Positions 17,946-22,314 of a stretch of DNA of 64,000 bases are shown piece after piece. Both the position numbers and the translations under genes were made by a program. Origin of the DNA: Ferrovibrio sp. (GTDB taxonomy: Bacteria; Pseudomonadota; Alphaproteobacteria; Ferrovibrionales; Ferrovibrionaceae); the NCBI RefSeq assembly GCF_019636075.1, contig NZ_JAHBYG010000017.1, positions 1-64,000 on the forward strand, given 5' to 3'. Below the pieces are notes generated by a model. The model ran no database searches. It saw only the letters and a program-made list of their open reading frames with translations, and was not told the origin of the DNA. How positions within the stretch are numbered: the first letter of the stretch is position 1; the number at the start of each line of letters is the position of its first letter.

Positions 17946-19463
17946 ATGACGGCCTTGCTGCTCACCCCAGGCGAAATCCCGCTCTCCGATCTGCGGCGGC
18001 TGCATGCCGGTGCGCCTTTCTCGATATCCGAGGCGGCGCGGCCCGGCGTTGATGCCAGTGTAAAAACCGTGGCCGATATCGTTGCCGCCGGCCAACCGGC
18101 CTATGGCATCAATACCGGTTTCGGCAAGCTGGCCCAGGCCGGCATTGCGGCCCATGACCTCTCTGCGCTGCAGCGCAACCTTGTGCTGTCCCATAGTGTG
18201 GGCACCGGGCCGCTGCTGGATGATGATTGTGTGCGGCTGATCCTGGCGCTGAAGGCGGCCAGCCTGGCGCGCGGCCATTCCGGTGTGCGCTGGCTGGTGA
18301 TCGAGCGGCTGGTCGAGTTGCACCGCCACGATATCCTGCCCTGTATTCCCGCTCAGGGTTCGGTGGGGGCTTCGGGCGATTTGGCGCCGCTTGCCCATAT
18401 GAGCGCCGCCATGCTGGGCATCGGCGATGTGCGTGTGCAGGGTGTGCAGATGCCGGCCATCGAGGCGCTCAAGCAGGCGGGCTTGCAGCCGTTGCAACTC
18501 GGCCCCAAGGAGGGATTGGCGCTGCTGAATGGCACGCAGGTTTCCTGTGCTTTGGCCCTGCGCGGTCTGTTTGCGGCGGAACGTGCGTTTGCGTCCGCGC
18601 TTGTATCCGGCGCGCTGAGCGTGGAGGCCGCCAAGGGTTCCGACACCCCCTTCGATGAACGCATTCATGCTTTGCGCGGTCAGCCTGGGCAGAAGGATGT
18701 GGCGGCTCTGTTCCGCAAGCTGATGGCGGGCAGCCGCATCCGGGAATCGCACCGCGATTGCCCGCGTGTGCAGGATCCGTATTCGCTGCGCTGCCAGCCG
18801 CAGGTGATGGGTGCGGCGCTGGATCTGCTGCGCCATGCGGCCGATACGCTTTGCACCGAGGCTAATGCGGTATCCGACAATCCGCTGATCTTCGCCGATA
18901 CCGGCGAAGTGCTGTCGGGCGGCAATTTCCATGCCGAGCCGGTGGCTTTCGCCGCCGATATGATCGCCATGGCGCTGGCCGAGATCGGTGCGCTGTCGGA
19001 ACGCCGCATCGCCTTGCTGGTGGATGCCAATATGAGCGGGTTGCCGGCCTTCCTGGTCTCAAGGCCCGGCCTTAATTCCGGCTTCATGATCGCCCAGGTG
19101 ACGGCGGCGGCCCTGGTGGCCGAGAACAAGCATCTGGCGCATCCCGCCAGCATCGACTCGCTGCCCACTTCGGCCAATCAGGAAGACCACGTGTCCATGG
19201 CCACCCATGCCGCGCGGCGGCTTGGCGATATGGCGGAAAACCTCGCTGCCATTCTCGGCATCGAATTGCTGGCGGCCGCTCAGGGCATTGAATTCCACCG
19301 TCCGCTGCAAAGCTCGAATGCGCTGGAGGCTGTGCACGCCGCCATCCGCGCCAAGGTGGGGCCATATTTCGAAGATCGCTTCTTCGCGCCCGATATCGAG
19401 GCAGCAAAAACCATGGTGCGCCAAGGCCTGTTCCGGCAATGGGTCGAAGATATTTTGCAATAG
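17946..19463 (+). CDS. hutH: Histidine ammonia-lyase
   Basis: First enzyme of histidine degradation: L-histidine to trans-urocanate plus ammonia. From the ATG at 17946 (GGAG 6-7 nt upstream) it is 505 aa, close to the usual 510. The self-forming MIO cofactor triad is A142-S143-G144 in [15 protein letters not shown], and the catalytic Tyr is Y53 in AYGINTGFG. The C-terminal [15 protein letters not shown] is also conserved. The other hut genes (hutU, hutI, hutG or hutF, hutC) are not beside it, so this is an isolated entry gene, but a HutC-like operator precedes it. Confidence 0.95.
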
Positions 19464-19464
19464 G

Positions 19465-19506
19465 TGAATACCATAGTATTAGTGCAGTTGAATACTATGG
19501 TATTCA
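19465..19506. repeat. Perfect 16-bp AT-rich inverted repeat between hutH and the methyltransferase
   Basis: TGAATACCATAGTATT (19465-19480) and AATACTATGGTATTCA (19491-19506) are exact reverse complements with a 10-bp spacer. It starts 1 bp after the hutH stop and has no U-tract. It may serve as a hutH 3' hairpin, or as an operator for the downstream methyltransferase. Confidence 0.8.
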
Positions 19507-19571
19507 AGAATTTACGTAGTATTTAAAGTATATGCCGAATGCTTCTCCTCGAAAATTACTTCGAGGCGACC

Positions 19572-21299
19572 ATGGGCAATCTGCTGTATTTCGGCGACAA
19601 CCTGAAGATCATGCGTGAATTCATCAAGGATGAATCCGTCGACCTGATCTACCTCGATCCGCCGTTCAATTCGAATGCCAGCTATAATGTGCTTTTCAAG
19701 TCGCCGATCGAGCCGGCGTCAGCGCAGGTCAAGGCGTTTGAGGATACCTGGCATTGGGAAATCGAGGCGCAAACTGCTTTCGAGGAATTGGAAAGCAGAA
19801 GCATGGATACGTTTCGTCTGCTTCTATCGCTGAAAAGTTTTTTGGGTACGAGCGATGTGATGGCCTATCTGGCGATGATGGCGATCAGGCTTGTCGAAAT
19901 GCATCGGATACTTAAACCAAACGGCTCGATATATCTCCATTGCGATCCCACCGCGAGCCACTATTTGAAGATACTCATGGATGGCATCTTCGGTGCGACG
20001 ATGTTTCGCAACGAGCTTATTTGGAAGCGAAACTCTGCGCATAGCGACGGTAAGCAAGGCGCGAAACATTATGGAAGAATCAGTGATTGTATTCTTTTTT
20101 ATTCTAAAGGCAGCAAGGTCATATGGAATCAGCAATACGCGCCATATGATGCAAAATATATAGAGAGGGATTATCGCCGCATCGATGAAAATGGTCGTCG
20201 GTATCGACTCAGCGACATACAGGGGCCGGGGAGAGCCGAGAAAGGCAATCCTTTTTATGAGGTAATGGGTGTTTTCCGGCACTGGCGTTATACGAAAGAA
20301 AATATGCAGCGGCTCATAGAGCAAGGGCGGATTGTGCAAACAAGGCCGGGTGCGGTGCCTCAGTACAAGAGATACTTGGATGAAATGCCCGGGGTTCCGA
20401 TTCAAAACCTCTGGGATGATATCCCTGTCATCAATAACAGATCGAAAGAAATGCTCGGGTACCCTACGCAAAAACCCATGGCATTGCTGGAGCGAATTAT
20501 TCTCACGTCGTCGAATCCAGGCGATATCGTGTTGGATCCATTCTGCGGTTGCGGCACGGCCGTTCATGCTGCGGAGAAACTGGACCGTAAATGGATCGGG
20601 ATTGACATAACCTATGTTGCATTGAAGGTTATTCGAGATCGTTTGGCGTCGAATTTTCCTTCGGTGCGTTACGCCATGCGCGGCATTCCCCGCGACGTGG
20701 AGGCGGCACGCCGCCTGGCGGAGCAGACGCCGCATGAATTTCAGAATTGGGCGATCTCGGAACTTGGTGGCAATTCGCGCGGCAAAGGTGCGGATCGCGG
20801 GATCGACGGTGATATCGTATTCATGACCGGGCGCGACGAATACCGCCGGGCCATCATTTCGGTAAAGGGCGGCAAGTATGTCGCGCCGGCTGCCATTCGT
20901 GAATTGATCGGCACGGTGAAGCGGGAGCGGGCCGAATTCGGCATCTTTATCTGTTTCGGGCCGCTCACACGCGAGATGCGCCGTGAAGCCGCCGAGGCCG
21001 GACAGGTTGAGTTGCCCGGCGGCGACAGACCGCGCATCCGTATCGTCACCGTGGAAGAATTGCTGGCCGGAGCCAACCTCGGCCTCACCGTGGTGCTGGA
21101 TAGCGTTTCCAGCGCCAGCGAAGCCAAGCGGGTGCAGGCAAAGCGCCAGCGCAAGACCAAATCCGCCGACCCGAAGCAGAAGAGCATGATGCTGCCGTTG
21201 AAGGGCGGCCGTTCTCATGACGCGCCGCATGGCAAGAGCCTGGAATTGCCCTTGGAAGAGGCCGCCACCGGGCGCAAGCGGGCCGGTCGCAGGTCATGA
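19572..21299 (+). CDS. DNA adenine methyltransferase fused to an Mrr-like nuclease domain
   Basis: A 575-aa protein from the ATG at 19572 (GAGG 5 nt upstream; an ATG at 19539 lacks an RBS). Residues 1-375 form a beta-class amino-methyltransferase: catalytic DPPF at 29-32, a variable target-recognition insert, YPTQKP at about 297-302, and the SAM motif DPFCGCGT at 322-329. Residues about 388-500 resemble the Mrr_cat restriction-endonuclease fold, with GADRGIDG (D408, D412) and ISVKGG (K432) as the PD-(D/E)XK-like site; the usual E/Q two residues before the Lys is Ser430. The methyltransferase half is AT-rich (23 of 60 bases G/C at 20101-20160) while the nuclease half is host-like (39 of 60 at 20881-20940). 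No separate R or S gene is adjacent. It may be an epigenetic methylase, a one-protein R-M system, or a methylase with a dead nuclease. Confidence 0.88.
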   Translation: MGNLLYFGDNLKIMREFIKDESVDLIYLDPPFNSNASYNVLFKSPIEPASAQVKAFEDTWHWEIEAQTAFEELESRSMDTFRLLLSLKSFLGTSDVMAYLAMMAIRLVEMHRILKPNGSIYLHCDPTASHYLKILMDGIFGATMFRNELIWKRNSAHSDGKQGAKHYGRISDCILFYSKGSKVIWNQQYAPYDAKYIERDYRRIDENGRRYRLSDIQGPGRAEKGNPFYEVMGVFRHWRYTKENMQRLIEQGRIVQTRPGAVPQYKRYLDEMPGVPIQNLWDDIPVINNRSKEMLGYPTQKPMALLERIILTSSNPGDIVLDPFCGCGTAVHAAEKLDRKWIGIDITYVALKVIRDRLASNFPSVRYAMRGIPRDVEAARRLAEQTPHEFQNWAISELGGNSRGKGADRGIDGDIVFMTGRDEYRRAIISVKGGKYVAPAAIRELIGTVKRERAEFGIFICFGPLTREMRREAAEAGQVELPGGDRPRIRIVTVEELLAGANLGLTVVLDSVSSASEAKRVQAKRQRKTKSADPKQKSMMLPLKGGRSHDAPHGKSLELPLEEAATGRKRAGRRS

Positions 21300-21305
21300 T
21301 CCTGT

Positions 21306-22148
21306 TCAGAGTCGTATGCTGAGGTAATCCCGCACGCGGGCGTCTCGCCAAGCCATGTCGAGATGCCGGTTCTGGGCGCGGGCCGTGGTGCAGGCGGCCA
21401 GTGCCTGTTCGCGGCCGAGTGCCAGTGATGGCGACAGCAGATGCGCCGGCGTGGCGGCGCGCAGCCGTTCGGCCACATGGTCCGGCGGCGAAGGGCGGCT
21501 GGCCAACCAGGCTTCGGCATCGCGGAAGCCGTCACGCATCGACAGCGCAATCATGTAATCACAGGCAAGTTGCGGGGCAGCGGGTTGATTGGGCGGCGCG
21601 GTCAGCAAGGGCAACAGCGGCGCCAGGCTGGGGATTACGTGATTGGCATAAACCTCGGTTTCCCAGTAGCTGGCGGCGATGGCGGCGCAATGGGCAATAT
21701 CGCGCACGGATTCCATGCCGCTTTCAGCCAAAGGCAGGATTTCGATCTGCGGCTTTTTCGGGTCGACGGTATCGTTGCCCACATCGACATAGAGTGCGCC
21801 GATTTGCAGGGCGTTCTGGAAATATCGCCCGCGCAATATGCCCCAGATGGAGCGTATCTCGCCGCCGGCCAACAGGAAATCGCGCAGCGCCACCATGCCC
21901 GGATCGGTGGCGGAACGCATCGTTTCGGGCAGCAGATTCAGCGCCACGCGCGCAATCGGCTCGCAACGGCCGATCGGATAGGGCTTGCCGAAATACTCCG
22001 GCATGGCGGGTTTCAACTGCGCGTCTACGGCATGGCGCAGGGCCCTCAGGGCGTCGGTCAGTGCATTTATGTGAGGCGACAGATAGCGGTCGGTCAGCGC
22101 CTGCATCTGCGGCGTGACGGGAGCCATTTCCTGCGGGAGTAACTTCAT
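21306..22148 (-). CDS. Protein of unknown function
   Basis: A 280-aa soluble protein from the ATG at 22148; no clear Shine-Dalgarno sequence marks the start, and an ATG at 22127 is an alternative. It is mostly alpha-helical by composition, with no signal peptide or membrane segment. Stretches that might be conserved include PYPIGRCEPIARVALNLLP, the acidic YVDVGNDTVDPKKPQIEILPL, and AASYWETEVYANHVIPSLAPLLPLL. Codon use matches the surrounding genome. It converges on the methyltransferase (6 bp between stops) and follows tRNA-Val on the same strand. I do not recognise the family. Confidence 0.65.
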   Translation of the reverse strand: MKLLPQEMAPVTPQMQALTDRYLSPHINALTDALRALRHAVDAQLKPAMPEYFGKPYPIGRCEPIARVALNLLPETMRSATDPGMVALRDFLLAGGEIRSIWGILRGRYFQNALQIGALYVDVGNDTVDPKKPQIEILPLAESGMESVRDIAHCAAIAASYWETEVYANHVIPSLAPLLPLLTAPPNQPAAPQLACDYMIALSMRDGFRDAEAWLASRPSPPDHVAERLRAATPAHLLSPSLALGREQALAACTTARAQNRHLDMAWRDARVRDYLSIRL

Positions 22149-22239
22149 GGCGATAGAATCACATCGATTTTCCTGAAGGGGCTCACCAGAATGGCTCACC
22201 GCCGGCTCTAGCAATCCAAGGCTTTGATTTTTCAGGAAA

Positions 22240-22314
22240 TGGTGGGCGGTGCAGGGATTGAACCTGCGACCCCAGCAATGTGAATGCTGTGCTCTACCGC
22301 TGAGCTAACCGCCC
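22240..22314 (-). tRNA. tRNA-Val (anticodon CAC)
   Basis: On the minus strand a 75-nt cloverleaf folds completely. The acceptor GGGCGGT/ACCGCCC is followed by an encoded ACCA end. The D-arm is GCTC...GAGC. The anticodon stem CAGCA/TGCTG holds the loop TTCACAT (anticodon CAC), and the T-arm is GCAGG TTCAATC CCTGC. CAC reads GUG valine codons. It is preceded by its own promoter. Confidence 0.97.

Follow-up and report, generated by a model that had tools for sequence, protein, structure and literature searches.

What does a single gene encode when its product joins a DNA methylase to a nuclease-like domain, and does the uneven base composition of that gene record how the two parts came together? 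Both questions are raised by a reading frame in the stretch of Ferrovibrio DNA analysed here (64,000 nucleotides, referred to as the window), for which a first-pass annotation had proposed an adenine methylase fused to an Mrr-like nuclease with a composition break at the junction. The features to which the argument refers are the following (positions in the window; residues counted from the start at 19572).

19572–21299, + strand: single-chain methylase-nuclease fusion protein, 575 aa (start picked from relatives)
19572–20021, + strand: N-terminal methylase core, residues 1–150 (Pfam N6_N4_Mtase; DPPF in 118/118)
19656–19667, + strand: catalytic motif IV, DPPF, residues 29–32 (invariant in 118/118 aligned members)
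20022–20426, + strand: target-recognition region, residues 151–285 (variable, exchanged, lowest GC3, 0.49)
20427–20666, + strand: methylase motifs X and I, residues 286–365
20460–20477, + strand: motif X, YPTQKP, residues 297–302
20535–20558, + strand: motif I, DPFCGCGT, residues 322–329
20697–21071, + strand: Mrr-type PD-(D/E)XK nuclease domain, residues 376–500 (Pfam Mrr_cat; AlphaFold; Foldseek)
20742–20867, + strand: predicted nuclease active site, Q391 to K432 (alignment of 118)
20742–20744, 20793–20795, 20805–20807 and 20859–20867, + strand: predicted active-site residues Q391, D408, D412 and S430-V431-K432
21072–21296, + strand: variable, basic C-terminal tail, residues 501–575 (residues 536–575 predicted disordered)

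Domain layout and the predicted nuclease active site

The longest form of the open reading frame spans 19539–21299 (586 aa) and the frame is open from this alternative upstream start; the start at 19572 was preferred because the equivalent methionine opens many relatives (M-N-x-L-Y/F-F/Y-G-D-N). The methylase belongs to the beta class, as the first-pass annotation had it, both by its Pfam match (N6_N4_Mtase, E=1e-42) and by the motif order IV, recognition region, X, I. An AlphaFold model built with 79 family sequences (pLDDT 87.7, pTM 0.85) has EcoP15I Mod as its top structural match (E=5.9e-22), and RsrI and CcrM also match. In its C-terminal part this model shows a nuclease core made of helix 387–397, strands 413–420 and 423–431, helix 439–451 and strand 456–461. 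Mrr_cat is matched by the window protein (E=1.8e-8, 34.9 bits against a cut-off of 21) and by 73 of the 79 relatives in Pfam. The nuclease was also modelled alone from 46 sequences (pLDDT 88.3, pTM 0.83), and its Foldseek matches were predicted proteins of viruses that are annotated as restriction endonuclease, the best at E of about 5e-5. Together with the Pfam result, the core and these phage matches uphold the PD-(D/E)XK-like fold that had been suggested for the C-terminal part. The same model returned nothing below E=0.001 against the PDB, where the weak matches above that value were RPB5, whose N-terminal domain is a known relative of this nuclease fold, and the Type II enzymes EcoO109I and EcoT38I; searching the PDB with the sequence of this domain yielded nothing relevant.

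Alignment of 118 members shows strong conservation of the proposed catalytic residues: D412 and K432 never vary (118/118), D408 is retained in 117/118 and position 391 is either Q (76) or E (42). The numbering of D412 and K432 is right when counted from 19572 and S430-V431-K432 stands as described; nevertheless, the replacement of the usual E/QxK by SVK, although present in the window, is no local oddity, since S is the commonest form at position 430 (S 82, Q 35, N 1), making SVK the family norm. A serine in place of E/Q could lower activity. In Cfr10I/NgoMIV, the carboxylate is relocated to give PD-XXK-E (PMC551604). No single compensating downstream acid specific to S-type members was found here, positions 444, 450 and 452 being mostly acidic in both S- and Q-type members, which are otherwise alike. 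The idea that S430 is a local defect marking a degenerate nuclease was rejected on account of this likeness and of the prevalence of S in the family.

A related alternative is that the whole protein serves only as a protective or regulatory methylase, its Mrr-like domain being weak or dead and retained for binding DNA or anchoring the protein, so that phage DNA is shielded from host restriction. Phage-borne methylases can indeed act solely to protect phage DNA, and this explanation gains from the phage gene context, the "DNA methylase" annotation, the serine at 430, a weak Pfam match of the window protein to NA-iREase1 (an "inactive REase" family) and a frame break in one relative (L046, genome G041), which indicates that the methylase part can persist alone. 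A dead domain would, however, be expected to lose its invariant residues, and the near-complete retention of D408, D412 and K432, the overall similarity of S- and Q-type members and a nuclease dN/dS of about 0.12 in Likavirus phages, as low as that of the methylase core, all argue for a working domain. The nuclease is under purifying selection in Likavirus, and the methylase-only explanation is therefore considered unlikely, though it carries more weight than the other alternatives treated below. In favour of an enzyme with two activities, all key residues of both catalytic halves are kept in the 118 relatives, with the serine at 430 counting against it.

Distribution and gene neighbourhood

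The fusion is old and widely distributed. Over 100 relatives with the fusion were recovered, from plasmids, temperate phages and bacteria belonging to several phyla, and a scan of genome contigs gave members matched across the two domains in Bradyrhizobium, Asticcacaulis, Inquilinus, Mesorhizobium, Chloroflexi, Planctomycetota and Actinomycetota. Strong matches were present in 8 of the 398 sampled genomes of the phylum and 7 of the 385 of the class (window genome included), and at least 80% of the protein was matched in 8 plasmid and 28 phage records; since the query was the entire protein, these counts favour full-length matches. In viral contigs, the single-protein query matched no relatives and the alignment query 368, of which the best 80 were kept. 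Among the 18 genomes of its own family, only the window genome carries the fusion.

Some members depart from the common layout. In L046, the frame break lies between methylase and nuclease (about 1028–1531 of the locus, - strand); the methylase stays open and the nuclease resumes in a different frame. The copy on a Sinorhizobium fredii GR64 plasmid (L047, 6001–7657) is annotated as two genes, split within the methylase half. Additionally, a same-genus genome (G008; L017, 1000–3249) encodes a different N6_N4 methylase of 749 aa that has a similar recognition region and no Mrr domain.

In the window, the gene is preceded by a histidine ammonia-lyase-like gene (hutH, Pfam Lyase_aromatic) and followed by an unrelated gene on the - strand (21306–22214), which matches no Pfam family and has a patchy occurrence among genomes of the genus (4/10), and then by a tRNA-Val (22240–22314). 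The tRNA was considered as an integration site and rejected, since no att-like direct repeats flanking the fusion gene were found. The downstream neighbour is retained in only three further genomes of the genus, none of them with hutH in the stretch examined, and thus no clean empty site was recovered. One further element lies between hutH and the start of the fusion gene:

19466–19505, no strand assigned: perfect inverted repeat GAATACCATAGTATT-N10-AATACTATGGTATTC

Its arms of 15–16 bp are separated by a 10-nt gap, each arm being itself nearly palindromic (GAATAC-YATR-GTATTC) in the manner of a double operator, and it occurs as a single copy in the genome. It is possibly a candidate operator; it was absent upstream of the relatives and from the viral contigs, and as a feature of the family it was discarded because only the window has it.

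No res, hsdR, hsdS or helicase gene adjoins the fusion gene in the window. In those phage and plasmid neighbourhoods that are annotated the gene likewise stands alone, and res, hsdR and hsdS are absent beside it; on one plasmid (L057) a separate restriction endonuclease gene is its neighbour. The earlier proposal that modification and cutting parts share one chain without R or S subunits is accordingly sustained at the level of predicted domains. Four groups of phages have the gene next to, or not far from, an integrase or repressor, the usual place of lysogen-expressed cargo: it sits between the serine integrase and ribonucleotide reductase genes in the Likavirus locus, near the integrase in Dori, near a tyrosine integrase and the immunity repressor in Amgine, and directly 3' of a CI-like repressor in Marinitoga phage MPV1. 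In the sister Likaviruses Lika, Zemlya and Danzina, an Lsr2-like gene occupies the same slot, which therefore holds variable cargo. This context agrees with, and does not prove, a defence role expressed in the lysogen.

Base composition and exchange of the recognition region

The composition break reported in the first-pass annotation is real and milder than the 38% versus 65% G+C of its 60-base sample. The G+C fraction is 0.51, 0.48, 0.48 and 0.49 in successive regions of the methylase, 0.63 in the nuclease and 0.66 in the tail, with flanks at 0.64 (host about 64%); along the sequence it stays at 0.43–0.54 from about 19400 to 20700 and at about 0.6 or above on either side. Third-position values (GC3) give a finer picture: 0.75 for residues 1–52, 0.60 for 53–150, 0.49 for 151–285, 0.55 for 286–365, 0.72 for 366–500 and 0.83 for 501–575, with about 0.54 over residues 53–365 against about 0.76 over 366–575 (z about 5). 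The minimum in a 50-codon window is 0.40, at residues 162–211 as numbered in the longer ORF, whereas the neighbouring genes have GC3 of 0.71–0.78 and seven of eight stay at or above 0.64 in every such window. The low-GC3 segment thus has two edges, at about residue 52–60 and about 365–390, and reaches its lowest values in the recognition region, so that no simple step between methylase and nuclease is present.

The idea that the break records the fusing of parts with different histories is not supported, since the fusion is old and widespread and several relatives (L001, L003, L055) have the same fusion with even composition, the very outcome that the first-pass annotation had named as a refutation. 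The view that it implies, in which a low-GC methylase was recently joined in this lineage to a resident high-GC nuclease, could draw on the G+C and GC3 step near residue 365–390 and on the other 17 family genomes, which lack the gene as a fusion. Against it, the same fusion occurs across phyla, plasmids and phages, the nucleases nearest to that of the window (53–55%) sit in fusion proteins of Bradyrhizobium, Mesorhizobium and Asticcacaulis, the first 52 codons are also host-like in GC3, and the genome holds no other Mrr_cat domain that could have been the donor. A recent local fusion is hence extremely improbable, and it was dismissed on the cross-phylum occurrence, the nearest fused nucleases and the missing second Mrr_cat.

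The low-GC3 segment fits instead an allelic exchange of the specificity segment within a pre-existing fusion gene. An example of such exchange comes from the Likavirus phages of Streptomyces, where one locus (alleles at L050, L053, L059, L060 and L141–L147) holds 11 alleles with seven recognition types that are 31–70% identical, next to nucleases that are 90–98% identical. DNA identity in these alleles is 0.42–0.58 over residues about 163–270 and 0.90–0.96 over most of the nuclease. The recognition region has therefore been swapped repeatedly under a constant nuclease. In the methylase flanks, dS is 0.83–0.98 compared to 0.29 in the nuclease, as expected if the replaced segment exceeds the recognition region. 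When identities are compared pair by pair over all 118 members, those of the recognition region hardly correlate with those of the other regions (Spearman 0.12–0.14), which correlate among themselves at 0.41–0.48; the region (residues 151–285) is exchanged independently of the rest of the protein. The window gene is itself a mosaic: its recognition region shares 72% identity with that of viral contig L061, for which the nuclease figure is only 43%, and its nuclease is 55% identical to that of a Mesorhizobium member (L012) whose recognition region reaches 22%. A GC3 dip in the recognition region is also seen in other high-GC members (L042–L045). On the strength of the Likavirus swaps, the weak correlation, the mosaic gene and these dips, we infer that the composition break in the window is a trace of recognition-region exchange.

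Relation to known systems and proposed mode of action

Several known systems share parts of this architecture. Type III Mod proteins (EcoP15I Mod, Mbo45V Mod) have the beta-class fold and the variable central recognition region of the window protein, but their mod gene stands beside a gene for a Res helicase-nuclease; neither the window nor the annotated neighbourhoods of fused relatives hold such a separate subunit, and the nuclease is fused at the C-terminus instead. Type ISP enzymes (LlaGI, LlaBIII) are single chains with an Mrr-like PD-QxK nuclease (PMC3874165), like the window protein; unlike it, they have an N-terminal nuclease, a gamma-class methylase and a helicase/translocase, and no helicase domain was matched by Pfam in the window protein or its relatives. 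Type IIC/IIG enzymes (MmeI, Eco57I, BcgI) combine methylase and PD-(D/E)XK nuclease in one chain, as is found here at the domain level only; in most of them the nuclease is N-terminal and the methylase of the gamma class, and altering the specificity module alters both activities at once (PMC4081073). Their specificity diversifies by module change or exchange, which is safest if both activities depend on a single recognition domain (PMC4081073), as they would in the window protein. Their module is C-terminal or a separate S, whereas the window protein has a predicted internal recognition region, beta class and C-terminal nuclease in place of the majority form, and because of this order it is classed as a protein that would work like a IIG enzyme and not as a standard member of that type. 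The nearest described architecture is that of BtgZI, an exceptional Type IIC enzyme with the methylase first and a C-terminal PD-(D/E)XK variant with Q for E (PMC4081073); compared by description only, it differs in its alpha-class methylase, and in the window family S is found more often than any other residue at that position. No description of a beta-class methylase with a C-terminal Mrr domain was found in open-licence papers, a search that did not extend to REBASE, which may list such proteins as putative enzymes. The window protein is thus a putative new variant of single-chain restriction-modification enzymes.

The best explanation, which we hold to be reasonably probable, is a one-gene, helicase-free restriction-modification enzyme in which a Mod-type beta-class adenine methylase and an Mrr-type nuclease share one exchangeable recognition domain. 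Since the fusion is widespread and its DNA-reading part has been repeatedly swapped, the protein is probably a compact one-gene restriction system. In the proposed scheme, the recognition domain (about residues 151–285) would bind a specific site, where the SAM-bound methylase would mark a base, presumably adenine, and so protect resident DNA; where the site is unmarked, the C-terminal nuclease would cut nearby, probably after pairing of two molecules. Such dimerisation is proposed because a chain carries only one active site and lacks a helicase/translocase. The target would thus be unmethylated rather than methylated sites, and the role that of defence or superinfection exclusion.

The polarity of cutting could be reversed, since classical Mrr enzymes cut modified DNA. 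In a Type IV-like arrangement, the Mrr part would be modification-dependent and cut foreign-methylated DNA, while the tethered methylase lays down a tolerated mark. The catalytic domain is of the Mrr family, as in the Mrr/MspJI modification-dependent endonucleases, and Mrr of E. coli responds to methylated DNA (PMC12707154). Yet Mrr-type domains also serve ordinary restriction, for example in Type ISP (PMC3874165), and, unlike the Mrr/MspJI enzymes, the window protein is fused to an apparently complete methylase and has no recognised modified-base reader (SRA, winged helix), Pfam giving methylase and Mrr_cat only in it and its relatives. This arrangement is accordingly regarded as quite improbable, and cutting of unmarked sites is kept as the preferred reading.

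If the nuclease cuts, about 1.7 kb of coding sequence would suffice for a complete restriction system that needs no helicase, and one swap of an internal segment would reset its specificity. Annotations that name these genes "DNA methylase" only would then be corrected, the enzymes would offer an attractive platform for restriction enzymes with new specificity, and they would be a likely source of the superinfection immunity conferred by many actinophages and other temperate phages. The exchange reading also accounts for the composition break, as the footprint of specificity exchange and not of domain fusion. A wider proposal, to which we give slightly less than even weight, is that these proteins form an unrecognised and widespread single-chain restriction-modification class, largely borne by phages and plasmids. 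In it, a Type III-like beta-class Mod would carry a C-terminal Mrr-type (S/Q)VK nuclease in place of the Res helicase, would be retargeted by internal recognition-domain cassette exchange that switches methylation and cutting together, and would be carried beside the integrase of temperate phages as superinfection-exclusion cargo.
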